DNA of 26,493 bases from a virus: positions 1-26,493 of IMG/VR virus record IMGVR_UViG_3300021077_000123; one strand, 5' to 3'. A program made the translations under genes and the position numbers. The notes below the pieces were generated by a model. The model worked only from the letters and a program-made list of their open reading frames with translations. It did not search any database and had not been told where the DNA came from. Positions 1,727-26,202 of the stretch are shown here, piece by piece (positions within the stretch are counted from its first letter, which is position 1; the number at the start of each line of letters is the position of its first letter).

Positions 1727-1742
1727 GTAGCGAAGATTGTTG

Positions 1743-1771
1743 TTGACAAGAGTACCATACGGTGATACATT
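1743..1771 (+). promoter_or_regulatory. Sigma70-like promoter, leaderless type
   Basis: TTGACA (1743-1748), 17-bp spacer, TACATT (1766-1771), then 7 nt to the ATG at 1779. Transcription would start at or next to the start codon. The upstream AAGATT (1733-1738) is the shared divergent box. Confidence 0.65.
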
Positions 1772-1778
1772 AACCAGG

Positions 1779-2528
1779 ATGAGGGTTTGTTTGCTTTCTG
1801 ATTTGCATCTAGATCACCACCAAGATGGTGGCGCGTCATTTCTTAAAGATCTTATTATCCCTGATTGCGATTTAACCGTAATTGCTGGAGACTTATCACA
1901 AGCTAACCATTGGCGCTGGAAGCAGAACGTCAAAGAAATATGCGATAAATCAAAGCAGGTCCTTTACGCAATGGGCAATCATGAGTATTACGGTGCGTCA
2001 ATCACTGAAACAGACTGTCGTGCCCACAACCTACCCAATGAATTCAAAAACCTGACAGTAGCCTCTAGGGCGAAGGTTTTAACACAAAAAGATATACCTG
2101 CCCTTGGCGACTTGAATTTGTTAGTAGGAACACTTTGGTTTCAAGACGCTTGTGATCAAGAACACTACAAGAATTTGCTGAATGATTTCGCCTTAATTGA
2201 GGATTTGGAGCCTGAGATTTACAGAAGGAACGATAGGTTTAAGTGTCTTCTCTATGGAATTAAGGACGAGCCCTGCATTGTTGTATCGCATCATCTTCCA
2301 AGTTATAGTTGTGTCAATCCAAGGTTTGCTGGAAGCGCTATTAACAGGTTTTTTGTGGGAGGTATCGACGACAAGGATATAGAAAATAGTTCGATCAGTC
2401 TGTGGGTTTGTGGGCATGGGCATGATGCGTTAGATTTTAAAATCGGGAAGACCAGAGTCATTTCTAATCCCGCAGGGTATTTAAACGAAATGCCTGCTTA
2501 TTATGAACCAAAAGCAATTGACATCTAG
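1779..2528 (+). CDS. Calcineurin-like metallophosphoesterase
   Basis: 249 aa. All metal-binding motifs of the family are present in order: DLH (SDLHLD near the N-terminus), GDL (AGDLS), GNHE (MGNHEYY), SHH (VVSHHLPS) and GHGH (CGHGHD). Such enzymes use two metal ions to hydrolyse phosphomono- or diesters; the substrate here is not evident. The frame is open back to a TTG at 1737, but that start would place the promoter -35 and -10 inside the coding region. The ATG at 1779 is therefore chosen, and it begins MRVCLLSDLHLD as usual for the family. The gene ends inside the promoter of the RNA ligase. Confidence 0.88.
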   Translation: MRVCLLSDLHLDHHQDGGASFLKDLIIPDCDLTVIAGDLSQANHWRWKQNVKEICDKSKQVLYAMGNHEYYGASITETDCRAHNLPNEFKNLTVASRAKVLTQKDIPALGDLNLLVGTLWFQDACDQEHYKNLLNDFALIEDLEPEIYRRNDRFKCLLYGIKDEPCIVVSHHLPSYSCVNPRFAGSAINRFFVGGIDDKDIENSSISLWVCGHGHDALDFKIGKTRVISNPAGYLNEMPAYYEPKAIDI

Positions 2529-2551: not shown

Positions 2552-3649
2552 ATGCAACCAGAGCTAAAGGTACAAAAGTTTTTGCGCATGACTCCAAATG
2601 GTATCGAGGAGTTGAAAAATAGGTTTGCTATTGATGCAAAAAGACATTCTGAATATCCTAACCTAGTCCTTTTAAAATATTCTCAAATTGAGTCAAACTT
2701 TGCCGAGCCTATTGTACAAGAATGTCGAGGTGTCGTACTTGACGAATTGAATGATTGGCGAGTTGTTTGTTGGTCGTTTAGAAAGTTTCACAACCTAAGC
2801 GAGTCTTTAGCCGCTAAAATTGATTGGTCTACAGCTGAGGTCCAAGAGAAAAAAGATGGATCTTTGTGCCAGCTCTTTCACTATGGTAACAAATGGAACG
2901 TTGCGACATCGGGTACTCCAGACGCTTCAGGTCAAGTTAATGATTTTGGAAAGACGTTTAAAGAGCTTTTTTGGGAAACATGGAATAAATACGGGACAGA
3001 CACTGACTATTTAAATTCTAATTTTTGCTACTCTTTTGAACTTACGGGTCCTTTTAATCGAGTTGTAGTCGATAATAAAGAAAATGAGCTTACTGCCATT
3101 GGATGTAGAGACCTTAGAAATCTACAGGAGTTCCATTTAGACTACAGCCCCATACAGGCTATTGGCGTCCCTAGGAGGTTCCCTTTAGCTTCTGTAGAAG
3201 ACTGTGTTAAAGCGGCTGAGGCACTGAACCCTATGAGTCAGGAAGGGTTTGTTGTCGTAGACGCTAAATTTAATAGGATTAAAATCAAGTCACCTGCTTA
3301 CGTTATGTTGCACCATGCTAAGGACTCGCTGTCAAAGAAACGTAAGTGCGAAATCGTGCGTAAAGGTGAGTTTGAGGAATTTAAAACAGCCATTGACAGT
3401 CTTCCTGAGTTAAAGAAGATTTTTGAAGAGGTATATGAGGCGCATAGAAACACAGTCGTTTGTTGTGACACTAAGTTTGTTGAAATTAGATACATAGAAA
3501 ACCAAAGGGACTTTGCTGTAGAAGCAAACAAGACAAAGTATGCCTCTATCTTGTTTCAAATGCGAAAGAACAATTGCTCAGCCGCTCAAGCATTATCCTC
3601 CCCTAAAATGTCCATCGATCACTATATGACTTTGGTAGGAGTGAAATGA
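2552..3649 (+). CDS. RNA ligase, T4 Rnl1-like
   Basis: 365 aa, close to T4 Rnl1 (374 aa). It is a covalent nucleotidyltransferase that seals 5'-PO4/3'-OH RNA ends through a lysyl-AMP intermediate. Motif I is KKDGSL with nucleophile K100. The upstream CRG (R59) matches the Rnl1 conserved Arg. Motif III-like FELTGPFNR carries E163. Motif IV is EGFVV (E231). Motif V is KIKSP (K244, K246). These positions match T4 Rnl1 closely. Rnl1 in T4 repairs tRNA cut by anticodon nucleases. No fused or adjacent 5' kinase is visible; the HAD phosphatase and metallophosphoesterase lie just upstream. A short ORF overlaps its stop codon. Confidence 0.93.
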   Translation: MQPELKVQKFLRMTPNGIEELKNRFAIDAKRHSEYPNLVLLKYSQIESNFAEPIVQECRGVVLDELNDWRVVCWSFRKFHNLSESLAAKIDWSTAEVQEKKDGSLCQLFHYGNKWNVATSGTPDASGQVNDFGKTFKELFWETWNKYGTDTDYLNSNFCYSFELTGPFNRVVVDNKENELTAIGCRDLRNLQEFHLDYSPIQAIGVPRRFPLASVEDCVKAAEALNPMSQEGFVVVDAKFNRIKIKSPAYVMLHHAKDSLSKKRKCEIVRKGEFEEFKTAIDSLPELKKIFEEVYEAHRNTVVCCDTKFVEIRYIENQRDFAVEANKTKYASILFQMRKNNCSAAQALSSPKMSIDHYMTLVGVK

Positions 3650-3771: not shown

Positions 3772-4626
3772 ATGGATTACGCAAGAATTTTGGCTTATAT
3801 GAGTGACGGCAGAGTTGTTGAAATCAAGGATAGCATTTATCCTGACAACGTACCTATTGTGCCCCATAATATTAACCTTGAAGGTGAGGCAAGTATTAAG
3901 TCTATTTTAGTTAGGCCCTTGACGATGACAGACTTGCTAGCTGCATTGTTTTTTGTAGACGCTTGGGTTTGGAGGGGTGGTAATATTCCAGAGCTTGTCC
4001 TTCCGTTTGTTCCAGGAGCTAGGCAAGATCGCATGAATGACGCAGGTGACTATTTGTTTACAGCTAAGTCTGTAGCAAACATGATCAACCAAAGAAACTT
4101 TCCAAGGGTTACTATTTTAGACCCACACTCAGAAGTTATTGCCGGGCTTATTAATAATTGTAAGGTGGTTCACAGTAATTGTCTTGTACGTACTTCTGGA
4201 TATTTTTACGGGTCTGACTATGATGCTGTAATTTCCCCTGACGCTGGAGCAGAAAAACGGGCCGGTAAGTTCGCCTGGAATATGGGGCTTCCCCTAGTTC
4301 ACGCCTGGAAGTCTAGAAGTGTTAAAGACGGTAGTATTAGCGGTTTTGGGTATGAAAATGTACTTAAATGCGGAGACAAGGTCCTAATCGTAGATGACAT
4401 TTGTGACGGCGGAGGGACTTTCCTTGGGTTAAAAGAAGAGTTGTCGAAACAGAGTATAATGGCAGATTTGTTTGTAACGCATAGTATCTTTAGTAAGGGC
4501 GTTAAAGAGTTGACAAGTAAGTTTAACCGAGTATATACTACCGATTCAATTATTAACCGACCTGATTCAATTTCAGGTGTAACAGTTATTGAAGTTTGTG
4601 AAAAGCTAATGAAAGGAACGTACTAA
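3772..4626 (+). CDS. prs: Ribose-phosphate pyrophosphokinase homologue (Prs or Adps)
   Basis: 284 aa, shorter than cellular Prs (about 315). Visible family elements are the ATP-side loop PGARQDRM (residues 81-88), DPHS (117-120), SPDAGAEKRA (155-164), a catalytic-loop equivalent WKSRSVKDGS with Lys and Arg in the expected places, and the PRPP-binding loop VLIVDDICDGGGTF (204-217). Classical Prs makes PRPP from ribose-5-phosphate and ATP. Phage homologues next to a NAMPT homologue can instead be Adps, which pyrophosphorylates ADP-ribose in the NARP1 NAD+ reconstitution pathway. Sequence alone cannot separate the two. The stop codon overlaps the next ATG (TAATG), so the two proteins are coupled. 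Confidence 0.9.
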   Translation: MDYARILAYMSDGRVVEIKDSIYPDNVPIVPHNINLEGEASIKSILVRPLTMTDLLAALFFVDAWVWRGGNIPELVLPFVPGARQDRMNDAGDYLFTAKSVANMINQRNFPRVTILDPHSEVIAGLINNCKVVHSNCLVRTSGYFYGSDYDAVISPDAGAEKRAGKFAWNMGLPLVHAWKSRSVKDGSISGFGYENVLKCGDKVLIVDDICDGGGTFLGLKEELSKQSIMADLFVTHSIFSKGVKELTSKFNRVYTTDSIINRPDSISGVTVIEVCEKLMKGTY

Positions 4627-6101
4627 TGAATCTTGCTCAAGAAGGACTAAGGACAAGCACTCGAATCGATGGATATAAATTTGACCACAGGCGTCAATAT
4701 CCTACATGTACGGAATTTGTATACAGCAACTGGACGCCACGTATGTCTCGTATTGAAGGACAAAATGAAGTAGTTTTCTTTGGGCTTCAGTATTTTCTTA
4801 AGAAGTACATGATGGCTGAATGGAAGAAGTTTTTTGACGCGCCAGTGGATGAGGTTTGCCTAAAGTACCTTAATCGAGTTAATGGATATTTAGGCCCAAA
4901 TCAAATTGGAACAGACCACATTCGCGCATTGCACAATCTAGGGTATCTTCCTCTTAAGTTTAGGGCAGTCAAAGAAGGATCCAAGGTTCCTCTTAGGGTT
5001 CCTATGCTTACGGTAGAAAATACTGATCCAAATTTTGCTTGGTTGGTTAACTACTTTGAAACCATTATGTCCGCTATTTTGTGGTTGCCCTGTACTTCAG
5101 CAACTTCGGCTTCTAGGATGCGGAAACTGTTGAATGAAAAGGCTGCTTCTACAGGTAGTCCTGCCGATTTTGTTTGTTGGCAAGGCCATGATTTTAGTTT
5201 TAGAGGGATGGCGGGTCTAGAGGCAGCTGAAATGTCTGGAGCAGCGCACTTGTTGTACTTCACGGGGACAGACACTGTTCCGGCCCTAGATCTTATTGAT
5301 GAGTATTATACGCCACCTGAGGGGTATTTTGTGGGAGGGTCTGTTGCGGCTACAGAGCATAGCGTTATGTGTGCTGGTGGGGAGCTGTCTGAACTAGAGA
5401 CCTTCGACCGCCTTTTAACGCTATACCCCAATGGGGTTGTGAGCGTTGTGTCAGATACTTGGGACTTGTGGAAGGTGCTGACCCAAATTATTCCAACCCT
5501 TACGGACAAAATTATGGCTAGGAATGGCAAGTTGGTTATTCGTCCAGATAGCGGAGATCCTGTAAAGATTATCTGCGGAGATTTCGATGCTCCTGTAAAC
5601 AGTCCTGCTTATAAAGGCGTTGTGGAATGCCTCTGGAATGTATTTGGTGGCACTGTGACCTCTACCGGACATAGGTTACTTGACCAGCACATTGGATGCA
5701 TCTACGGAGATTCTATTACGTTTGAACGAGCTGAAGCTATTTGTAATAATTTAGCTAAAAAGGGGTTTGCTTCAGGGAATGTTGTTTTTGGAATTGGATC
5801 GTTCACTTATCAATATGTGACGCGAGACACTTTTGGGTTTGCTATGAAGGCAACTTGGGTTCAAATCAACGGTAAAGGAATGGATATCTTCAAGAAGCCC
5901 GTAACTGACAATGGAATGAAAAACAGCGCAAAAGGAAGATTGGCTGTAATTCCTAACGCAGAAGGCAAGTTAGAGCTGATTAGTCAGGCTACTCCAGATC
6001 AGGAAGAAGATAGTATCCTGAAACCTGTCTGGGTGGATGGTAAGTTCGTTTTTGAGGAAGACTTTAAAACGATTCGTGAACGAGCATTGGGGGACCTGTA
6101 A
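4626..6101 (+). CDS. nadV: Nicotinamide phosphoribosyltransferase homologue (NadV or Namat)
   Basis: 491 aa, the usual NAMPT/NadV length. Key family motifs are present: HDFSFRG (188-194, equivalent to the HDFGYRG segment of human NAMPT with the nicotinamide-contacting Asp), GTDT (214-217), EHS (244-246, catalytic His region), IRPDSG (305-310, ribose-binding Asp), IYGDS and the GIGSF/TRDTFGFAMK segments. NadV joins nicotinamide to PRPP giving NMN. In NARP1 the homologue Namat joins nicotinamide to ADPR-pyrophosphate giving NAD+ directly. No NMN adenylyltransferase is visible in this window, which fits the one-step NARP1 reading. AAAGGA lies upstream of the ATG and the start overlaps the prs stop. 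Confidence 0.93.
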   Translation: MNLAQEGLRTSTRIDGYKFDHRRQYPTCTEFVYSNWTPRMSRIEGQNEVVFFGLQYFLKKYMMAEWKKFFDAPVDEVCLKYLNRVNGYLGPNQIGTDHIRALHNLGYLPLKFRAVKEGSKVPLRVPMLTVENTDPNFAWLVNYFETIMSAILWLPCTSATSASRMRKLLNEKAASTGSPADFVCWQGHDFSFRGMAGLEAAEMSGAAHLLYFTGTDTVPALDLIDEYYTPPEGYFVGGSVAATEHSVMCAGGELSELETFDRLLTLYPNGVVSVVSDTWDLWKVLTQIIPTLTDKIMARNGKLVIRPDSGDPVKIICGDFDAPVNSPAYKGVVECLWNVFGGTVTSTGHRLLDQHIGCIYGDSITFERAEAICNNLAKKGFASGNVVFGIGSFTYQYVTRDTFGFAMKATWVQINGKGMDIFKKPVTDNGMKNSAKGRLAVIPNAEGKLELISQATPDQEEDSILKPVWVDGKFVFEEDFKTIRERALGDL

Positions 6102-6102
6102 A

Positions 6103-6470
6103 ATGGAAAAACAAGAGATTGTAGAAAAATGTGCGGAAGCGGCTCATGAAATGAACCGTCTGTTTTGTGAGGCACATGGAGATTTTTCACAAGATAATTG
6201 GGTAATGCGCCTGCTTGGCAAAGAGAGTCGGCAATTCGTGAAGTAAACATTGCCTTGTCTGGAGCAACACCCCACGATCAACACGAAGCTTGGTGCAAAG
6301 ACAAGTTTGGAAATGGCTGGAAGTTTGGTCTAGTAAAAGATCCAGACAAGAAAGAACACCCCTGTTTGGTAAGTTACAACGATTTGCCTAAGTCTCAGAA
6401 GCTTAAGGACTATTTGTTCATTACAACGGTCACTTGTATGGCAGCTGTTTTAAGAGAAACTATTCCGTAA
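6103..6470 (+). CDS. RyR-domain protein, reading frame broken by one base
   Basis: The ATG at 6103 (GGGGGA upstream) opens a frame that reads MEKQEIVEKCAEAAHEMNRL and on to SQDNW, then runs out of the family pattern and stops at 6246. The remainder of the domain continues in the -1 frame from 6201 to 6470: GNAPAWQRESA, HDQHEAWCKDKFGNGW, DPDKKEHPCLVSYNDLP and KDYLF are classic RyR-repeat features. Joining 6103-6201 to 6201-6470 gives 122 aa, a normal size for phage RyR proteins. One missing G in the GGG run at 6200-6202 explains it. Possible causes are mutation, a sequencing or assembly error, or recoding. It lies directly behind the NAD+ genes and converges with the M15 gene, overlapping it by 11 bp. 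Confidence 0.8.
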
Positions 6471-16154: not shown

Positions 16155-17831
16155 TTATGACGGAGGTTCAGAAAGAAGATTGATGTTAGGGGTAAACGCG
16201 TTATTGTAAGTGTCTGACCACATTCCACCTATCAAAGCCAAAAAACTAAAGCTCATGTTGATAGGGGTAGCCCCCATAAGAGGTTGGGTTAGGGTGTATC
16301 TGGAAATGTGCCATTGCATTGTTTTTATATCTAGATATTCAATAGACGCTGAGTGATATCCACCATAGACATAAACTTTATTTGTTCCGGCAACGTATGA
16401 ACAAACACAATAGCTATGTGCGTTATTCATACCGTTAATCGGAGTCCAAAGTCCTGTAGCTGGATCGAAAATTTCACAGCTATTTAATTCGTAGGGGTAT
16501 TCATATTGTGTAGCGTCGTAACTAGAGATTGGGTAATTGGGACTATATCCAATACCTCCACAGACCAAAACTCTACCGTCAGGTAGTTTAGTCATACCAA
16601 AGGCGTATCTACCAACTGACATACTTCCTGTAGGACTGAAAATTGTAGTAGGAACTTGTCCAACCCCAGTACACGTAACGTCAATAATTTCACATTTATT
16701 TATTGGAGTAGATGTTGGGTAAGCCTGAGGGCCTGTTTGTCCAACGTCTTTAAAAGCTCCCGTTTTTCCACCAACAATTAAAGCATAGCTTCCTGGGGTT
16801 CCTAGATAGTTATTTACAATAGCTGTTTGATGATCCCGGCGTGCTGTAATAAGAGGTTGGGTAGTTGCAGTCCAAGACGATGTGTAAGGACTAAAGAAAA
16901 AAGCACTGTTTTTTGAGGATGTTAGGTCAGAATTTAACCCACCTGTCATTAGAATTACATTAGAGGTTGGTATAGAAATTGCCGAAGACTTTACCATAGC
17001 TTCAGGGCATGAGGTTGAGCTTCTAACAACACCGCTTGGGCTTAATATATAGGTGGATGTGCTACCAGTAGTCCAAGTGTCTAGCCCTCCCGTAAAAAGC
17101 AATTGATCTGAATACAGGTCAGATTCTATAACGCAACATGTAGGGAATAGTCTAGCCGCAACTGCAAAATTTGTGCAAACTAAAGATAAACTGTCATTTG
17201 TATCGTCGTGCGTTAGCGTTAAAACATCAGCGCTTGCCTTAGGAGAAAACACCCCAAACCCAGAATTCCCCCCAATAAGCCATCCATGTTGTGTGTCTTT
17301 TGAGTTAGTTTTTCCCGCATAGAATTGTCCATAAACACCAATAGGTGGCTTAAAACTTGATGCATCTGTAGGATCTCTGTTGGCTACTAATTGTCCAATA
17401 TCGCTGTCTTTTGTTGCAAGAGGGTTCCCGTTATTTGTAGATCCATCTATTAAAATATAACTACCAACTAAATCTTGAAATATCGGAGGTGCAGAAGGAT
17501 TACCATCAGAAGTAATAGAAAGAGAAGACGCAGCATAAATAGTTGCTTTCCGAGGAGTCACATTACCATCTTGATCGGGATATCCTTGAGATAACTCAGT
17601 AATTTGAGGAATCAGAAGGTGGGTTGTTTTAGTTGGTTCGAAATAAAAAGGATGCCTTAAGTATGCTGCGTATCCATTAGACCTTTGAACAGCAACACTT
17701 GTGGCAGGAATAGATACTTTAGCTTTGCCATCAATTTGAATAACAGATGCCCACAAAATATTATCGTGGACCCGTTTTGTTGTAGGTCTCCAAAAGCAAA
17801 GATCTTTACTGTAAACTTGATTTATATTCAT
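16155..17831 (-). CDS. Kelch-repeat tail protein
   Basis: 558 aa from the ATG at 17831 (MNINQVYSKDLCFWRP); a TTG further up at 17891 lies inside the previous gene and is less likely. Residues of about 245-535 contain six Kelch double-glycine turns (LLFTGG, VILMTGG, ALIVGG, VLVCGG, VYVYGG, LALIGG) with the typical downstream pattern, for example ELNSCEIFDPATGLWTPING. This predicts a six- or seven-bladed beta-propeller. The N-terminal 240 residues are probably a virion attachment region. Kelch propellers bind glycans or proteins, so host-surface contact is plausible. It is related to the Kelch part of the giant protein two genes upstream. Confidence 0.8.
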   Translation of the reverse strand: MNINQVYSKDLCFWRPTTKRVHDNILWASVIQIDGKAKVSIPATSVAVQRSNGYAAYLRHPFYFEPTKTTHLLIPQITELSQGYPDQDGNVTPRKATIYAASSLSITSDGNPSAPPIFQDLVGSYILIDGSTNNGNPLATKDSDIGQLVANRDPTDASSFKPPIGVYGQFYAGKTNSKDTQHGWLIGGNSGFGVFSPKASADVLTLTHDDTNDSLSLVCTNFAVAARLFPTCCVIESDLYSDQLLFTGGLDTWTTGSTSTYILSPSGVVRSSTSCPEAMVKSSAISIPTSNVILMTGGLNSDLTSSKNSAFFFSPYTSSWTATTQPLITARRDHQTAIVNNYLGTPGSYALIVGGKTGAFKDVGQTGPQAYPTSTPINKCEIIDVTCTGVGQVPTTIFSPTGSMSVGRYAFGMTKLPDGRVLVCGGIGYSPNYPISSYDATQYEYPYELNSCEIFDPATGLWTPINGMNNAHSYCVCSYVAGTNKVYVYGGYHSASIEYLDIKTMQWHISRYTLTQPLMGATPINMSFSFLALIGGMWSDTYNNAFTPNINLLSEPPS

Positions 17832-17881
17832 TTTTAATCTTTTACGGTCCAGCCAAAGCAACGTTAATCCAAAAAGTAGAA

Positions 17882-19174
17882 TCAACTGCAAGTGCTAGAT
17901 TGGTCCATATAGTTAGATTGTATCTCAAACCAAATATCCAATGAAGGAGAATATGAATAATTTACATTGGTTATAGCAAAGCTTCCTTGTAGCTCTGAAG
18001 GAAAGTTAGCTCCAATTATTGTAATATAGTCACCTACATGTAGTTTTGATATGTCTACGGCAGTGTTAGGCTTGAAACGAACGGTTCCTGTTGAAGGATT
18101 TGTGATTGTCCAGGTTATAGCAAGTAGTGAAAGGGAGTTTGTAAATCGCTGAATGACTTGTGAATCGAAATGAAGGCAAGGTTGAAGAGTGCCTCCTAGA
18201 CCAGTAACACTAGACCTTATCCCCTTGGTTTTGCTGTAAATTCTTATTTTTTTCTGACTAATCGTGGCAAATGCGTCTACGTTGTTTTTGTCAAAGGCAA
18301 AGTTAAGAGCTGCCACCAACTCTAACGCAGTGACTCTGAGGGGGTTACTGTAGTCCGCCCAGTTAACAACAAAATGAAAGCTTTTAGATTGATCAAACAA
18401 GATATCAAGGTTCGCTTTATCAAAAAGCTGAAAGGGTTCTTCTAGATCACTTTCAAAAAAGCCATGAACCGAATCCACTCCATACATTATTTCTAGAACA
18501 GAAAGTAAGGCGTCGTTTGTTAGTTTGGAATTTATAGTTGTTACAGCAAGTTTTCTAAAATCAGTGTCTGAAATACCTAGTTTTGTTGGCTTTTGTACCC
18601 CTCGATCTCCAGCAATGGTTGTCAGATAGTTATCGCTAGCAGTAGAGATCGAATATTGGTCTAAGGCCAGTCTAGCTTGGTTTTCTATGATAGAGTCTCC
18701 AGCTGCTATTCCAGCTAAGATCCCAGCAAAAACCTTTTTGTTTCTAAATTCTTTTGGAATAAAGCTAGAAACGTCGTTTTGAACAATGTTTGATCCAAAT
18801 TCTCCTTGTAGAGATTTGTCGGTTAAATCAAAGACTATTTCAGTATTCGATGGGAGGGATAGATTGTCCGAGTCTGCTGAGAAGATAGAGTTAGGTGGGC
18901 CAGACAAAAAGAAAATGGTCCACTGGCCAATGGAAAGAGGAGCGCTCAAATAAAGACGCACTGAATTAGTGGAGTTATTGTACTGCGCTAGATTAACCGT
19001 AATTTGGGAAGGCCCTGTTATAGAATAATTACTTGCTCTTGTCCCGTTAGTAATTCCTCTTGTGAAATTTATAATAATTGTGCTGTCGTCTAATAGTTCG
19101 ATTGACGAAACAAGAAAGGCATTCCCAATTGTAGGGGCTCCGTTACTGTTAGCTGTATCTAGAATCGATAACAT
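17882..19174 (-). CDS. Tail/baseplate protein downstream of gpJ-like gene
   Basis: 430 aa. The ATG overlaps the stop of the baseplate-J gene (TAATG) and AGGA lies upstream, so the two are coupled. Residues 20-100 look like an Ig-like or SbsA-type domain (VSSIELLDDSTIIINFTRGI). The middle (KEFRNKKVFAGILAGIAAGD to FRKLAVTTINSKLTNDAL) is helical, and the C-terminal part is beta. In many contractile phages the gene after gpJ encodes gpI or another wedge protein; this order suggests the same place in the baseplate, but no clear gpI signature was recognised. Confidence 0.7.
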   Translation of the reverse strand: MLSILDTANSNGAPTIGNAFLVSSIELLDDSTIIINFTRGITNGTRASNYSITGPSQITVNLAQYNNSTNSVRLYLSAPLSIGQWTIFFLSGPPNSIFSADSDNLSLPSNTEIVFDLTDKSLQGEFGSNIVQNDVSSFIPKEFRNKKVFAGILAGIAAGDSIIENQARLALDQYSISTASDNYLTTIAGDRGVQKPTKLGISDTDFRKLAVTTINSKLTNDALLSVLEIMYGVDSVHGFFESDLEEPFQLFDKANLDILFDQSKSFHFVVNWADYSNPLRVTALELVAALNFAFDKNNVDAFATISQKKIRIYSKTKGIRSSVTGLGGTLQPCLHFDSQVIQRFTNSLSLLAITWTITNPSTGTVRFKPNTAVDISKLHVGDYITIIGANFPSELQGSFAITNVNYSYSPSLDIWFEIQSNYMDQSSTCS

Positions 19175-22100
19175 TAAGTTCCTACAACTAGGACGTGGAT
19201 ATCGTTTTCAAAATCAACAACCATTGCTTTTTCTTGTCCTCTAACTGGAATTTGATCTTTAACTGAGCTGTATTCAGGGGATATAACGCTGACCGCTACA
19301 ACTCCATTAACCCCTTGGACAGCAGAAATAATGTCAGAAATTGCTATCGGAACTCCAATTTCACTTGCGTTTATAACACCTGACGCAGCGGATTTTATAG
19401 CTCCTATTGTGTCTATATTGGGGGTGTTGCTTTGTAGTCTGACTTGCAGTGTTAGTTTAATTTGCTTTATTGTAGGACCTTGAATTAATACAGAAGCCCC
19501 CTCTGAAACGTACCCGCTGTAATTGTCGGGATCTGCGCTGTCTCCATAAATGACCCGCTTTACTTCTGCAATTAACCCAGAGTTATAACGATATGCGTCC
19601 GTACCGTTTTTTACAGAATTTGGAAAATCAAGTTTATCTAAAGCTTTTACAATTGTTCCAGCCGATTCATTCCAAAGAGGCAAGTTTCCGCTATCGTCAA
19701 TAAGAAGATCTACATTATCAGAGTTTGATGCGTTAGGAGAAATCGTTATTAACTTCTTAACGCCATGAGTTGGGGCTTTTTCAACAATTCCAATATCTTT
19801 GCTTAGAGTAGGAACATTACCAGAAAAAGAGGTAGTCTTGTTTTTGTCTAGAGATACTGTTATTGTAGTGTCAGTATAAAATTTTCCAACATCTACAATT
19901 GTCCAAGACCCTTTGTTTTTTTCTCCAAACATGTCAGTGTTAATAACTAAACTGTCCCCAACAACAGGAGATTCATCGCTAAGAACTATCAACTCAGCCC
20001 CAGCGGTTTCGTCTACTGAATTTAAGTTATCGATCCAAATTGTGTAGATTGCTTCAGTTTGACTGAAGCGAAGGATTTTAAACACCCCACAGTTTGTAGG
20101 GGATATAGAATCATACATGTGTCTTATAGATAACCAATTCCCAGCGACTAGTTTAGACAAATTAGCATAAGAGTATTGACAAACCGACTTAGGAATGTTT
20201 ATCGTAGTGTATCTTCCGATTTTTTCTACATTAAATACAGCTTCATTGTTCAGCGAAGCGTTTTGTAGGTTTAGTTTGCTGTATGGCGTTGATGAAAAAG
20301 TAAAAACGCCACTGCTATTAATAGACAAAACGCTGTTGTTGTTCCCCCAAATAGGGCTTGCCTCGTTTGTGATTTTAGGGCAGACACTCGTGTTGTTTAA
20401 TTCAATCCAAGAATTGCCACAAAACCCTTCGCTTTCAGCTTTTGTTGTTGTTAAAACCATTCCTAACAAAGGAGAGTTTGCGTGTATAGGGGTCGACACG
20501 GCGTTTCCAATAACAGAAGCGGTCTTTAGGTTAGCTGACCCTCCTTGCACAAACACAGACCCTGCCTTACCAGGAGTGTTTGTTTGAATTTGTACCTTTG
20601 TTCCATTTTCACTTGAGCTAACGTCTGCGACGGACCAAAGGCCAGTAATAGCTGGGGTATTAAGCCATTGAACAACGGAATCGGTTAGTTGAGGAGCTAG
20701 GTAAAAAATTTCGTTAGTAAAGTCAGAGTTGGTAGCTAAAGTAGAAGAAACAGGAAGCTTCAAATCAAAAGTTGTAGGTAATGTTGTATTTGCCGGAGAA
20801 TTTGTGGCTTTGACATAATTGACACCATCTGAAAAAAGGCTTCTTGCGTCATAGCTATTTTGTGCGTCCCAATCTGCTATAGTAAGGCTTCCTAACCCAG
20901 TTCCCGTTATAGTAGCCGATACAGGGCTATTGGGATCTGAGTTTACAACAGAGGCCAGGCTAGAGGCTGTTGTAGTGGCTAAAGCAAATATTTGTAAATC
21001 GCTTTGTTTGTCTAAAAGTGTCCAAACAACAGTAGACGCAGTAGTTAGGTCTGGATTTAATTGATAGCATTCAATTAGTTGGCGATTGGCGTCAATTGAA
21101 GCAATTCTCATCGTGCTTGCGTTAATTAATCTAGACGGCAAAGAAGATCCTGCTGAGCCAGGCATTATAATTTTTACAAGATCGCCAACAGCCACTTCAT
21201 CATCAAACCTCGCCTTTTGATTTGGGTCTGTACTAATGGTTCCTGGATTTGCCACTGCGTTCCAAATTGTTCCATCGTTCAAAGCGTTATTGTCTAACAG
21301 GTAACTCTCTATTGTGATGCGCCAACTAGTTGGGGATGTTTTTGAGATAGCTTTGATTTTAAACTGACCGTTTTGCAGGCTCAAAGAAGTAGGAGACGCC
21401 CCCTCATACCAAAGAACATCTCCTGCGTTCAGACCAGGATCGTCAAGTGTAGAGGGGAACTCAATGTCTAGGTATGTCTCCCCGTTGGTTACAGGACGGC
21501 TTCCTTGCGTTACTGTAAACCCGGTAAAGATATAAGTTGACCAAACTTTAGTCGTTGCTCCAGTAGCCGATACTTTGCAAACACCAAGTCTAGTGTTAGC
21601 GCTTATGTTTCTGTTTTTACGTAGTGCTCCCGATCCAACGTTTACGTCTATGGTTGCTCTAGGGGATCCTCTGTAGAAACTATCCTGGTTGTCTCCCATA
21701 GAAACCGAAACAGGTTGATTAGGAGAGGTTGGATAGACATAACGAATTGCTGCACTGTTTCCTTCTTCTCCAAACCTGTAATATCTCCAAAGGATACGCT
21801 TGGTTGTGTCAGAAGCGTCAGTTAAAACCCTCGCTCTAGAAATAATCGCGAAGTCGTTAAAATTGTAGTCTATACCGAAGGCACTGGAAATTGTTTTATT
21901 GGAGTTGTCAGCGTCTTTTAGAGAAAGAGGGCTTTGATAAGTCCCATTGGTACCCAATTTGCGGGCCATAGGGATTACAAAAGCCTTAGTGTTATTGTCC
22001 CCATCAACACTTACGTTTAAAGTGTCTGTAACAGAAAACTTAAAAGGACTCGCAATGTAGACAGGATTGCTTACAATCACAGGGACTTCACTTCTAAGTG

Positions 22101-25100
22101 ATATTTTGTTGCTTAAGGAATAATTTTCAAAATCACTGGCGATATTAGTCTGAGTAGAAGAAAGATTCCCAATAACTCCCCTAATTCCCTTACAATTGCC
22201 AAACACGTTGTTGATTAAAAATGTCGAGTTTGTCCCCCCTACAGGATTACTTCTAAGCCCAACAACTGTACCGTTTGGCGGAACAGGTTCTGGGTTGTAA
22301 AAAGATCCCTGAGTTTCGCTATACATTGGGGTGTCAAGGATCTGGGGAAGAGCGTCTGATGACGCTTTTGTTTTTGCTCCAACAGTTCTTAACTGAAGCC
22401 CTAAAGGAGTCCCAATACCACTTCCAGAATTTACACTGGCATATTGAGAACGCTGGCTTATGACAATGTTGTTTGGAGAGAATGAAGGTAAAGCTACATC
22501 CTGATCTACTAATAAAAGGGAACCTTCGCTTGATAGGGTTGACAAACGAATTTTTGTGGTTTGAAATGGATTAGCTATGATGTCTTCCCCCCCAAGATTC
22601 AGTACAGGAACTAAGGAGTTTGCTGTATATAGAAACCCTGAATTTGAAGGAACTGAAACAGTGCTTATTGGATATTTACTTCGAACAGCTTTAAGTCTGC
22701 CATTAGCTAAAACAGTAGACGAAAAATTAGGTACAGGGTGCAGTCTGTTAGTTCCACTACAATCCACTAAATCTGTATTAGCAATTCCTGAAAAACTACT
22801 CGAAAAAGAGTCGTTTGAAATTGCCCCACCAAAAGAAGCAATGGTATCGGCTCCGGTTATTGCCACAGGACAGCTAGCCTCTTTGCTGCCTAATACGTTC
22901 AATATATATGGAGGTCCACCATTTACGGTAGCCCAAAGGTCAGTGCTTGGAGTATAAAAATAATCAGAAACTGGATATGAATTGCTACCTGTGTTGATGT
23001 TAATGCCACCAGCCACAATTTTGTTTGAGGTGGCAGATACAACTAAGTCTGTTTGAACAAATTCCGCAGACCAAGACGGATGGTCGTGAACAATGGATTT
23101 TTCTGTTCCCCAGGTGTTTGGGCCTAGCGTTAATACTTGGTAGGTTCCAGTGCTTATAGAGTCAGTTTTTGAGTTATCTAAATTAAGTCTGGTTGCGTTA
23201 CCGGCAGCAACTAAAACAGTACCATTAGTAGCAAGTCCAAAAAAGGCTCTTGGAGTTGCTAGACTGGCCCCTGGCATAGATGACCATGAATGGAAAGTGT
23301 CCGAATATAATTCAGCGCTGCTAACCATTATCGCCGGATTTGCAATAGTTGATATTCCACCAAAAACCATGATTCCGCCAGTAGTTTTAACTGCTCTATG
23401 TCCATATCTTGGGGTGGACATTAAAACAGACGGGCTGCTTTGATACAGGTTGCCAGGAGGGTTGTATTGAATACTAGTATTTAGTGCGCCGCTTCCTAGA
23501 GTTGTTGAAGAGCAGCCTCCAGCAATTAACACCATCCCGTTGTCTAGCAAGGTGGCCGTATGATGAACTCTAGGTTGAGGAGTAGAGTTACTGTCGCTAA
23601 TTGGTAAAGGCGGTCCACTTGTAAAAGTGTTTAGAGTTGGATCATAAAGCTCTGTAGTAGCTGTAGGACTTCCGCTACTATCAAATCCTCCTGCAATAAA
23701 AACCTTACCACTGTTTAATAAAGTAGCTGTATGGTAAGCTCTAGGGGTGATCATGTTGGGCAACTGTGTCCACGATCCATCAACAGGGTTGTATTTTTGG
23801 CAATCCCCTGTGACGTTCCTACCCTTTAACACACCTGGTAATCCGATTCCAGGCTGAATAGATGTACAGCCACCTATTACGATTACGCTAGAGGAACTTG
23901 TAGAAGTTGCTGTATGTCCAATACGAGTAGCGGTGTCAGCGTCTTTTTCGATGACAAAAGATTCTCCTTGATTTTCGTTTCTATAAATTCCTTCCCAATT
24001 TGAAGGAAAGGCAGGATCTGTTAATAACAGCCAATCGCCTTGTTTCAATCCCGGAATAGACATAGAGGTATTATTAGCGTCCTGGATTTCAAACGAGTTA
24101 GAAACGGCAGATGAACCGTTAGGCAGGAGGCTTGAGTGGTAAGTCCCCTTGTTAAAGATACCTGTTGGGATTATAGTTGCCTCCGGATCATCTACACAAA
24201 TATAGTAAGTAGAGTCTGAATCAAGAGAGATTGGGGTAGTACCCATATCAGTTTCGACAAAAGCTTCGGCCCATTGAGTTCCTAGGGACAGTCTGTCAAA
24301 TTGTGATAGTGGAAAATTTAAAGCGATGGATCCAACAGATCTGTCAATTTGGTAATCATTAGAAATTCCTGTACTTGTACCAGCGTTAAACACTCCTTTT
24401 GTTACTAAAGAGCCCCCTGAAATAGAAACGGAAGCGGAATCGGATTTTCCTTTGTTTGAAGTAAGAATTACTTGATCATTTTGAGGGGTTGCTGTAATAC
24501 CTGGCAGGCTATTAGTTAGAACATCGCTCCAAATTTGAGGAGTGGCGTTGCTTAGTATGGAATGTCCTAAAGCCTGGAAGTCAGCGTCTGTAATTGTGTA
24601 GGTAAAACTTCCGGTATTATCTGTTTCTAGCACAATTGTTTCGGATGTAAACAAAGGCTTCCAAAGAGAAAACTGATTAGAAATGATTTGAGCTAAGCTA
24701 CCGTCTTTAGAAAGCAGTTTGTCGTTTAGATACAAGGATGATGTATAGACTGGAGTTGTGCTTAATCCGCAAATGATAGCAACGTCTGTTTCAGGGTTTG
24801 GTCCCAAGACGACTTGGATGTCATCGTTGTTTTCTGACTTGCTAAAAATAGCAAAAGAACTTCCAGACTGGGTTGTTCTTGCTTGAAATAGACAGTCTGG
24901 GTCAGAGTTTATAGAGGAAATCATGTCAAACGCCGAAACAGACGTATCTGTGTTTTGATCAAAATAATGAGTGGAACTAACCCCACCAATAGTTAGTGTT
25001 AATTCTGCTCCATCAGGGATAGACCAAGGAGCAAAGTTACTGGCTTCTACGAAAGCTTGGGCAATCGGAGAGAATGTAGTTAAAAAGTCTGTTTCTCCTC

Positions 25101-26157
25101 CGGTAGCTGAGTCGATTACGTTTTCAAGACCAATTCCGTTTGATTTTTCTTCATATCCATTCCCATCGTCAATATAAAGAACAGTTGGTTTGTTTTTCCT
25201 GCGAACAACATTTGCAGAAAGAACAGAAGAAGCTTCGTCAGCTGCGGAAATGTCAACAATAGCATTTTTAATAGCCGCAGATGTTCCTCTTTGTTTGTTG
25301 GAACGGTTTTGACGAATTCGGTCTCTGTAGCTATTATCAGTCTCTATATCTCTACCAAAGCTGGTATTTTGTGGGTTTGTTACTTGAGCGGTGGAAAAGG
25401 GAGGAGAGTTACCAAATGAGGTTATATTGTTAGCTGGTAAATTTCCTGAGATACCGTCTACGCTGCAAATAATAGAAACTGAGTTGACTTCACTTTCTCC
25501 ATCAGGAATAGTTGCGTATTTAGTTGTATAGAAAGTAACGGGAGAGGTAGACGCTCCTTGAGGGGTAGAGACGATTTGCCCAACCTGAATTGGTCTTTCT
25601 CCTCCTTGCGCAAGAATTACCTCTTCCCCTTGGTTGTGAAATTTGGTTGTTGAGGTGGCCTGTAGCGTCCAAAAAGAGTTTGAGTCTGTTTTTGAGGAAT
25701 ATGAAATAGGGCCTTCATAATTTGAAGTCCCTCTGCCTAAGTAAATCTGTCCACTTGTAGGAGCAGCGTCAAACGTATTTCCTTTAGAGATATATAACGT
25801 TACAGATCCAACTATAGGAGCTGGCTTGCCATGGTATAGGATAGAGCCTGTCTTTTGAAACGCCGTATCATTTATAGTAACAAGCCCCTGAGCAGCTCTT
25901 TTTTGTCTCCGTTTTACGTTTTCATCGTTTCCGATCCGATCAAGCGTTAGTCCTTCTGCGCTATCTAGATCTTTAGACAAAAGCGAAGTGAAAATGTCGG
26001 CAGAGATTTTAGCGTCAGTTTGGCTCGCTGCTTCAAAAATTGTAAGTAGCTGTCCCCCAGGAATAAATCGCTTGACCCCTAACCTAGCACGCGCTGCATT
26101 AAGTTGAGTCCCTAAAATAGCCTGGTAAGATAAAGGCGTTGGAGTCGATTTTGCCAT
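19174..26157 (-). CDS. Giant baseplate-J protein with inserted Kelch propeller
   Basis: 2327 aa from the ATG at 26157 (MAKSTPTPLSYQ); an in-frame ATG at 26181 would translate the -35 box of the divergent promoter and is disfavoured by comparison with the 14918 gene. Residues of about 70-310 match the baseplate-J/gp47 core: EGLTLDRIGND, a GNLPANNIT-type segment and the RDIETDNSYRDRIRQ motif. The last 140 residues (about 2190-2327; AEVKRVIYGD, LQVRLQSN, IGVPIAISDIISAVQGVNGV) match the J C-terminal domain. Between them is a roughly 1900-residue insertion. At about 740-1120 it has seven Kelch turns (VIVIGG, VFIAGG, VLIAGG, IMVFGG, VLVAAG, KIVAGG, IASFGG). The role is baseplate wedge plus probable receptor or glycan contact. 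Confidence 0.87.
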   Translation of the reverse strand: MAKSTPTPLSYQAILGTQLNAARARLGVKRFIPGGQLLTIFEAASQTDAKISADIFTSLLSKDLDSAEGLTLDRIGNDENVKRRQKRAAQGLVTINDTAFQKTGSILYHGKPAPIVGSVTLYISKGNTFDAAPTSGQIYLGRGTSNYEGPISYSSKTDSNSFWTLQATSTTKFHNQGEEVILAQGGERPIQVGQIVSTPQGASTSPVTFYTTKYATIPDGESEVNSVSIICSVDGISGNLPANNITSFGNSPPFSTAQVTNPQNTSFGRDIETDNSYRDRIRQNRSNKQRGTSAAIKNAIVDISAADEASSVLSANVVRRKNKPTVLYIDDGNGYEEKSNGIGLENVIDSATGGETDFLTTFSPIAQAFVEASNFAPWSIPDGAELTLTIGGVSSTHYFDQNTDTSVSAFDMISSINSDPDCLFQARTTQSGSSFAIFSKSENNDDIQVVLGPNPETDVAIICGLSTTPVYTSSLYLNDKLLSKDGSLAQIISNQFSLWKPLFTSETIVLETDNTGSFTYTITDADFQALGHSILSNATPQIWSDVLTNSLPGITATPQNDQVILTSNKGKSDSASVSISGGSLVTKGVFNAGTSTGISNDYQIDRSVGSIALNFPLSQFDRLSLGTQWAEAFVETDMGTTPISLDSDSTYYICVDDPEATIIPTGIFNKGTYHSSLLPNGSSAVSNSFEIQDANNTSMSIPGLKQGDWLLLTDPAFPSNWEGIYRNENQGESFVIEKDADTATRIGHTATSTSSSSVIVIGGCTSIQPGIGLPGVLKGRNVTGDCQKYNPVDGSWTQLPNMITPRAYHTATLLNSGKVFIAGGFDSSGSPTATTELYDPTLNTFTSGPPLPISDSNSTPQPRVHHTATLLDNGMVLIAGGCSSTTLGSGALNTSIQYNPPGNLYQSSPSVLMSTPRYGHRAVKTTGGIMVFGGISTIANPAIMVSSAELYSDTFHSWSSMPGASLATPRAFFGLATNGTVLVAAGNATRLNLDNSKTDSISTGTYQVLTLGPNTWGTEKSIVHDHPSWSAEFVQTDLVVSATSNKIVAGGININTGSNSYPVSDYFYTPSTDLWATVNGGPPYILNVLGSKEASCPVAITGADTIASFGGAISNDSFSSSFSGIANTDLVDCSGTNRLHPVPNFSSTVLANGRLKAVRSKYPISTVSVPSNSGFLYTANSLVPVLNLGGEDIIANPFQTTKIRLSTLSSEGSLLLVDQDVALPSFSPNNIVISQRSQYASVNSGSGIGTPLGLQLRTVGAKTKASSDALPQILDTPMYSETQGSFYNPEPVPPNGTVVGLRSNPVGGTNSTFLINNVFGNCKGIRGVIGNLSSTQTNIASDFENYSLSNKISLRSEVPVIVSNPVYIASPFKFSVTDTLNVSVDGDNNTKAFVIPMARKLGTNGTYQSPLSLKDADNSNKTISSAFGIDYNFNDFAIISRARVLTDASDTTKRILWRYYRFGEEGNSAAIRYVYPTSPNQPVSVSMGDNQDSFYRGSPRATIDVNVGSGALRKNRNISANTRLGVCKVSATGATTKVWSTYIFTGFTVTQGSRPVTNGETYLDIEFPSTLDDPGLNAGDVLWYEGASPTSLSLQNGQFKIKAISKTSPTSWRITIESYLLDNNALNDGTIWNAVANPGTISTDPNQKARFDDEVAVGDLVKIIMPGSAGSSLPSRLINASTMRIASIDANRQLIECYQLNPDLTTASTVVWTLLDKQSDLQIFALATTTASSLASVVNSDPNSPVSATITGTGLGSLTIADWDAQNSYDARSLFSDGVNYVKATNSPANTTLPTTFDLKLPVSSTLATNSDFTNEIFYLAPQLTDSVVQWLNTPAITGLWSVADVSSSENGTKVQIQTNTPGKAGSVFVQGGSANLKTASVIGNAVSTPIHANSPLLGMVLTTTKAESEGFCGNSWIELNNTSVCPKITNEASPIWGNNNSVLSINSSGVFTFSSTPYSKLNLQNASLNNEAVFNVEKIGRYTTINIPKSVCQYSYANLSKLVAGNWLSIRHMYDSISPTNCGVFKILRFSQTEAIYTIWIDNLNSVDETAGAELIVLSDESPVVGDSLVINTDMFGEKNKGSWTIVDVGKFYTDTTITVSLDKNKTTSFSGNVPTLSKDIGIVEKAPTHGVKKLITISPNASNSDNVDLLIDDSGNLPLWNESAGTIVKALDKLDFPNSVKNGTDAYRYNSGLIAEVKRVIYGDSADPDNYSGYVSEGASVLIQGPTIKQIKLTLQVRLQSNTPNIDTIGAIKSAASGVINASEIGVPIAISDIISAVQGVNGVVAVSVISPEYSSVKDQIPVRGQEKAMVVDFENDIHVLVVGT

Positions 26158-26174
26158 CTTTTTAAAGATTGTTG

Positions 26175-26202
26175 TTGACATGTCGCTGATTTTATAGATA
26201 AT
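26175..26202 (+). promoter_or_regulatory. Sigma70-like promoter, leaderless type
   Basis: TTGACA (26175-26180), 16-bp spacer, GATAAT (26197-26202), then 6 nt to the ATG at 26209. AAGATT at 26165-26170 is the shared divergent box. Confidence 0.6.

Follow-up and report, generated by a model that had tools for sequence, protein, structure and literature searches.

An Adps-Namat gene pair of the NARP1 type, followed by an RyR-domain gene, in an uncultured phage lineage

Two genes whose products are homologs of PRPP synthetase (Prs) and NAMPT lie side by side in the window, a fragment of 26,493 bases from a virus record (Table 1). They overlap by one base in the string TAATG at 4624-4628, where the stop codon TAA of the first gene occupies 4624-4626 and the ATG of the second occupies 4626-4628. 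In profile searches the upstream product matches Prs families (phrog_619, E 1.6e-58), with a score against TIGR01251 (E 1.4e-24, 86.5 bits) below the cut-off of 113, while the downstream product matches NAMPT/NadV families (phrog_448, E 2.8e-188) and scores 553 bits against NF006629, above the cut-off of 405. A chance origin of the open reading frames is excluded for both genes. The initial annotation of this DNA, which had described overlapping Prs and NAMPT homologs joined at TAATG, is borne out by the coordinates and the family matches. It had ended the locus with these two genes; both stand, but its 3' end was incomplete, for an RyR-domain gene starts at 6103. A promoter scan returned 19 promoter-like sites where shuffled sequences would give 9.7, and no terminator-like site was found in the same scan.

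Table 1. Genes and diagnostic sequence features of the locus, in window coordinates.
Feature	Position	Strand	Remarks
adps-like gene, 284 aa	3772..4626	+	predicted ADP-ribose pyrophosphate synthetase: ADPR + ATP -> ADPR-PP + AMP
Flexible catalytic loop KSRSVKDG	4309..4332	+	Adps-type K-x-R-x4-G-x-[ILV], vs KRR-type
PRPP-loop DDICDGGGTF	4393..4422	+	classical Prs has DD[MIL]xDTxGT[LI]
namat gene, 491 aa	4626..6101	+	predicted nicotinamide ADP-ribose transferase: ADPR-PP + nicotinamide -> NAD+ + PPi
Selectivity-clamp loop Arg42	4749..4751	+	by alignment, equals Arg40 of SPbetaL1 Namat, which stacks on adenine
Selectivity-clamp helix signature GSFTYQYVTRD	5796..5828	+	fits published Namat consensus
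RyR-domain gene, N-terminal part	6103..6246	+	ATG one base past Namat stop; then out of frame
RyR-domain gene, C-terminal part	6198..6470	+	another frame; PF02026 match

The best solved relatives of the downstream protein are 9W5X/9W5W (517 bits, vs about 226 for human NAMPT), which represent Namat of Bacillus phage SPbetaL1 bound to nicotinamide and NAD+ (PMC12774641). In SPbetaL1 Namat, the adenine of ADPR-PP is recognised by a selectivity clamp, which consists of loop Arg40 and a helix with the signature GS-X-Phi-X-Phi-X-Phi-TRD (PMC12774641). Both elements have counterparts in the window protein. The initial annotation had noted the main motifs, which are present, but it overlooked this published signature. 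Nineteen of the 20 NAD+ contacts of SPbetaL1 Namat are identical in the window, and the single exception, A362S, is common to the window protein and Namat of Mycobacterium phage DyoEdafos. Residues D15, Y17, F190, R193, D216, A242, R306 and D308, which contact nicotinamide and the ribose-phosphate, are likewise identical to those of SPbetaL1 Namat. Across the collected homologs, GS[FY] was read in 169 of 174 rows; it is absent from four clamp-less phage NAMPT controls and unreadable in one further row (L058).

Trees against characterised proteins, which the initial annotation had proposed as a check, agree with the clamp residues on the NAMPT side. The window protein falls in a 23-row clade with DyoEdafos Namat (support 100/99*), and all Namat sequences are split from the four clamp-less NAMPTs (100/100*). 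Compared with its sibling in a related 49 kb contig (L003), the gene has a dN/dS of 0.09, indicating purifying selection. Judged by residues and tree placement, the protein is a Namat and not an ordinary NAMPT. As a side observation, NF006629 is an NCBIfam equivalog model for nicotinate phosphoribosyltransferase that accepts the window Namat well above its cut-off; automatic annotation will therefore misname Namat proteins.

The AlphaFold2 model of the upstream protein (mean pLDDT 85.8) has a fold that matches PRPP synthetases. K180, R182, D208 and D209 are invariant, so that the catalytic Lys-x-Arg loop and the PRPP-loop aspartates are present. Of the 143 Prs-like proteins encoded at the collected loci, 129 have the form of the flexible loop given in Table 1, as against 0 of 9 classical Prs, and the PRPP-loop of the window protein is identical to that of DyoEdafos Adps. 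We considered DGGGT, in place of DTxGT, as a stand-alone marker of Adps and dropped it, since a classical Prs from a Phenylobacterium MAG (L193) has the PRPP-loop DDMIDGGGTL. In the sequences compared, the Phe that follows DGGGT and the K-x-R-x4-G loop discriminate Adps better than the Gly does. Three other Adps proteins, either tested ones or proxies, measure 272, 286 and 293 aa, vs 315 for E. coli Prs, and the window protein at 284 aa is of normal length for an Adps. The two weaker arguments raised at the outset, a short Prs and an altered loop compatible with a changed substrate, thus hold as well.

In the Prs tree the window protein and DyoEdafos Adps share a clade of 23 rows (100/94*), the other members of which are encoded by genes beside Namat in other phages, and the AU test rejects a grouping of the window protein with classical Prs (p-AU 4.7e-7). 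Adps as a whole is not one well-supported clade. Adps of SPbetaL1 and of a Felixounavirus, the latter a stand-in for the tested phage Bas63, lie outside the window clade, where the node is weak (72/70), and the substrate of the window protein is therefore read mainly from DyoEdafos and from its Namat partner. With that basis, we infer that the Prs-like protein is an Adps that would act on ADP-ribose.

General family names of both genes would suggest a more familiar pathway. In classical salvage of the NARP2-like or NadV type, the product of the Prs-like enzyme is PRPP and that of the NAMPT-like enzyme is NMN, from which a host or phage NMN adenylyltransferase makes NAD+; in keeping with it, SPbetaL1 Namat retains some PRPP/NMN activity in vitro (PMC12774641). 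Against it stand the full set of clamp residues, the placement with Namat and away from clamp-less NAMPTs, and the rejected grouping with classical Prs. The NMN ADENYLYLTRANSFERASE search, in which PF01467 was sought across whole records, also speaks against it. PF01467 was found in 0 of 25 clamp-bearing records, these being the window (a 26 kb fragment of its genome), the 49 kb sibling, relatives of up to 169 kb, SPbetaL1, DyoEdafos, ICP1 and others, and in all 4 clamp-less NAMPT phages. This pattern fits NARP1, not NARP2, and agrees with the earlier remark that no NMN adenylyltransferase was visible. Roseobacter phage DSS3P8, CcrKarma and Vibrio phage XZ1 show the contrasting arrangement: their NAMPT shares its catalytic core with the window Namat but is without the adenine clamp, having Gly at the Phe position and Lys, Asp or Gln at the Tyr position; an NMN adenylyltransferase-family gene is present in the genome, and no Prs-like gene was found near NAMPT. 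The combination of clamp-less NAMPT and NMN adenylyltransferase that marks NARP2 or NadV-type systems was not found in the window. On trees, clamp residues and the PF01467 search together we reject classical Prs/NadV or NARP2, and we regard classical salvage as highly improbable here.

Adjacency of adps and namat, the arrangement by which NARP1 is recognized, is found in the window, as it is in characterized systems. NARP1 of SPbetaL1 (OQ921341; PMC12774641) also has the pair in one operon; its Namat is about 51% identical to that of the window, with the clamp Arg, Phe, Tyr, Thr and Asp identical, while its Adps is about 30% identical and has the PRPP-loop DDLSSFGGTF. ICP1, a Vibrio phage, carries a similar PRS/NAPRT-annotated pair, NrsAB (PMC11559045), with the Namat signature GSYTYQYVTRD, although its clade differs from that of the window. 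NrsAB raises NAD+ and defeats the SIR2-HerA defence (Nezha), at a cost to fitness where the defence is missing (PMC11559045). DyoEdafos (MN234187; PMC13232231) provides the closest parallel: its Adps and its Namat each share a starred clade with their window counterparts, and the two enzymes have been shown to reconstitute NAD+ from ADPR in vitro (preprint PMC13232231).

Gene order varies among the loci collected. In viral contigs L022, L024, L025, L034, L039, L040, L065 and L070, Namat comes first and the Adps-like gene follows it, the reverse of the window order. Many bacterial genome contigs, mostly from Bacteroidota, encode a Namat with the clamp signature (L107-L185) and, in most cases, an Adps-like gene no more than 5 kb away, often not adjacent.

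The locus is very probably a tailed-phage NARP1 operon that rebuilds NAD+ against NADase defence, much as the initial annotation had suggested; trees, the clamp motif, adenine contacts and the absence of an NMN adenylyltransferase from the window and 24 other NARP1-type records all favour it. The sequence itself shows which genes are present and to which families they belong, the residues of the clamp and of catalysis, the tree placement with a reconstituted NARP1 and the PF01467 result; we infer the enzymatic activities of Adps and Namat, and their anti-defence role, by analogy. A host defence NADase would split NAD+ into ADP-ribose and nicotinamide. Adps would then transfer pyrophosphate from ATP onto the terminal ribose of ADP-ribose, and Namat would join the resulting ADPR-PP to nicotinamide, so that NAD+ is restored in two steps with no need for NMN adenylyltransferase. 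Phage replication could thereby continue despite NAD+ depletion.

The same chemistry could mainly balance NAD+ and ADP-ribose for phage metabolism or RNA repair rather than counter a NADase. An RNA ligase gene directly upstream would suit such a use, as would the RNA-repair genes that several phages carry close to NARP1 and the occurrence of NARP1 on bacterial chromosomes (PMC12774641). SPbetaL1 NARP1 and the homologous NrsAB of ICP1, however, overcome NADase defences, the ICP1 genes are costly in the absence of the defence, and the RyR gene attached to the window operon belongs to an anti-Thoeris family. We consider a mainly metabolic or RNA-repair use unlikely, and favour the anti-NADase role.

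RNA-repair genes are seen around NARP1 in the window (2552-3649), in L003 (L003:2268-3158) and in L002, L100 and L189. The gene directly upstream of Adps encodes a T4 Rnl1-like ligase in the window and in L004/L005, and the sibling L003 has an extra Rnl2-like ligase that the window lacks. Polynucleotide kinase lies beside NARP1 in DyoEdafos and Constella, and Rnl1 lies upstream of Prs in PaP1. A metallophosphoesterase gene near NARP1 (window 1737-2528) is common to L003 and L005 and was not found in the stretch of L004 examined. Elsewhere, on the minus strand, the window encodes a baseplate-J-like protein of 2335 aa whose central section contains kelch beta-propeller repeats (19174-26181), an unusual tail-gene fusion, and a second kelch ORF lies near it (16155-17891).

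Directly behind Namat, the RyR-domain gene of the window is split across frames at 6198-6246. Its N-terminal part has H15, N18, R19, C22, D27, Q30 and W33, which are invariant in a phage RyR clade, and its C-terminal part matches the Pfam RyR model (E 7.9e-12, 45.7 bits, cut-off 27.4). The sibling L003 has the gene intact at the same place, encoding 122 aa (L003:7478-7846), and the model of that protein (mean pLDDT 95.2) matches human RyR3 Repeat12 with Z 10.2 over 120 residues, rmsd 3.0.

Proteins of this kind have been studied in DyoEdafos, where gp78 (RyDEP), an RyR-domain protein encoded inside the NARP1 operon, converts 2'cADPR and 3'cADPR to ADPR by hydrolysis (preprint PMC13232231), and Adps and Namat turn the released ADPR into NAD+ (preprint PMC13232231). 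DyoEdafos and the window alike group an RyR-domain protein with Adps and Namat in a single compact operon, but the order is Adps-RyDEP-Namat in the former and Adps-Namat-RyR in the latter. In alignments, RyDEP H75, W78, H100 and D117 have counterparts in the C-terminal part of the window gene (HEAW, KEHP and LKD), so that the active-site H, W, H and D are kept. The window-lineage protein shares only 24% identity with RyDEP, which sits on an extremely long branch of the RyR tree, and is 49-53% identical to several members of a common phage RyR clade. Unlike RyDEP, it belongs to that common clade, with the N-terminal motif HExNRxxC...GDxSQ, and is frame-broken in the window. Its family, whose members were lately found to bind or cleave immune signals derived from NAD, is the anti-Thoeris family of RyDEP. 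Eight other RyR homologs have been tested, of which none cleaved cADPR despite conserved residues and six bound it (preprint PMC13232231); sequence therefore does not decide between cleavage and binding, and the RyR tree, with its long RyDEP branch, did not help to tell glycosidase from sponge. An intact RyR protein would most likely bind Thoeris cADPR signals.

Comparison with relatives bears on the history of this junction. The Namat of L003 is 98% identical to that of the window and its adps gene differs by 1 nt over 852 nt, and most DNA flanking the RyR gene is 97-100% identical. In the C-terminal part of the RyR gene, by contrast, 14% of bases differ, with a dN/dS of 0.14; this stretch has therefore probably been recombined, under purifying selection. 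Within the 97-100% identical DNA, patches only 80-91% identical to the sibling occur at 6200-6400, in the RyR gene, and at 5600-5800, and probably represent mosaic recombination at counter-defence genes. The frame break in the window is either a recent mutation or an assembly artefact. L004, a syntenic relative with an 82% identical Namat, has a VanY gene directly after the Namat stop and no RyR gene at the junction, so the RyR gene was probably gained in the lineage of the window and L003. Its acquisition seems recent and separate, and resembles the case of DyoEdafos, whose close relative ChutneyChips is without RyDEP (PMC13232231).

RyR is not a general part of NARP1. Three of 54 records besides the window carry an RyR gene, and it adjoins NARP1 only in the sibling and DyoEdafos; no RyR gene was found in the SPbetaL1 record or in the ICP1 record searched. 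We therefore rejected RyR as a general component: within the flanks examined, it adjoins NARP1 only in DyoEdafos and the window lineage. Apart from the sibling, no other viral contig was found with the RyR junction sequence. Two viral contigs, G031 and G068 (L224 and L231), contain both RyR and NARP1, far apart in the genome. This rarity, together with the broken frame and the 15 of 17 RyR-bearing records that have no NAMPT-family gene, would suit an incidental neighbour, a decaying passenger unrelated to NARP1. The RyR start codon follows the Namat stop directly, at a junction that is empty in L004, which argues for attachment instead, as do the same pairing in DyoEdafos, the low dN/dS between the window and L003 alleles and the intact sibling copy. 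The passenger reading thus strikes us as doubtful, though worth keeping in mind; we favour a gene added downstream of NARP1 in the window lineage, whose product would bind or cleave Thoeris 2'/3'cADPR, as RyDEP suggests. If it cleaves cADPR, the ADPR produced could feed Adps. A bolder and rather unlikely extension is that a three-step operon has been built a second time, independently of DyoEdafos, in which an RyR protein from another clade, encoded behind Namat, cleaves 2'/3'cADPR rather than just binding it and supplies ADPR to Adps and Namat.

NARP1 was already known, as was its pairing with RyDEP, reported for a single mycobacteriophage; new here is an uncultured phage lineage with NARP1, strongly supported by residues and trees, with a different gene order and an RyR gene from a different clade. 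The clamp signature, the Adps loop and the absence of NMN adenylyltransferase offer a practical means of distinguishing NARP1, at the sequence level, from ordinary NAD salvage. Finding RyR beside NARP1 in another phage supports a functional link between the destruction or sequestration of cADPR and the rebuilding of NAD+, for which the intact RyR protein of the sibling offers test material. Were the independent three-step operon real, recurrent joining of signal destruction to NAD+ rebuilding would be a general phage strategy.
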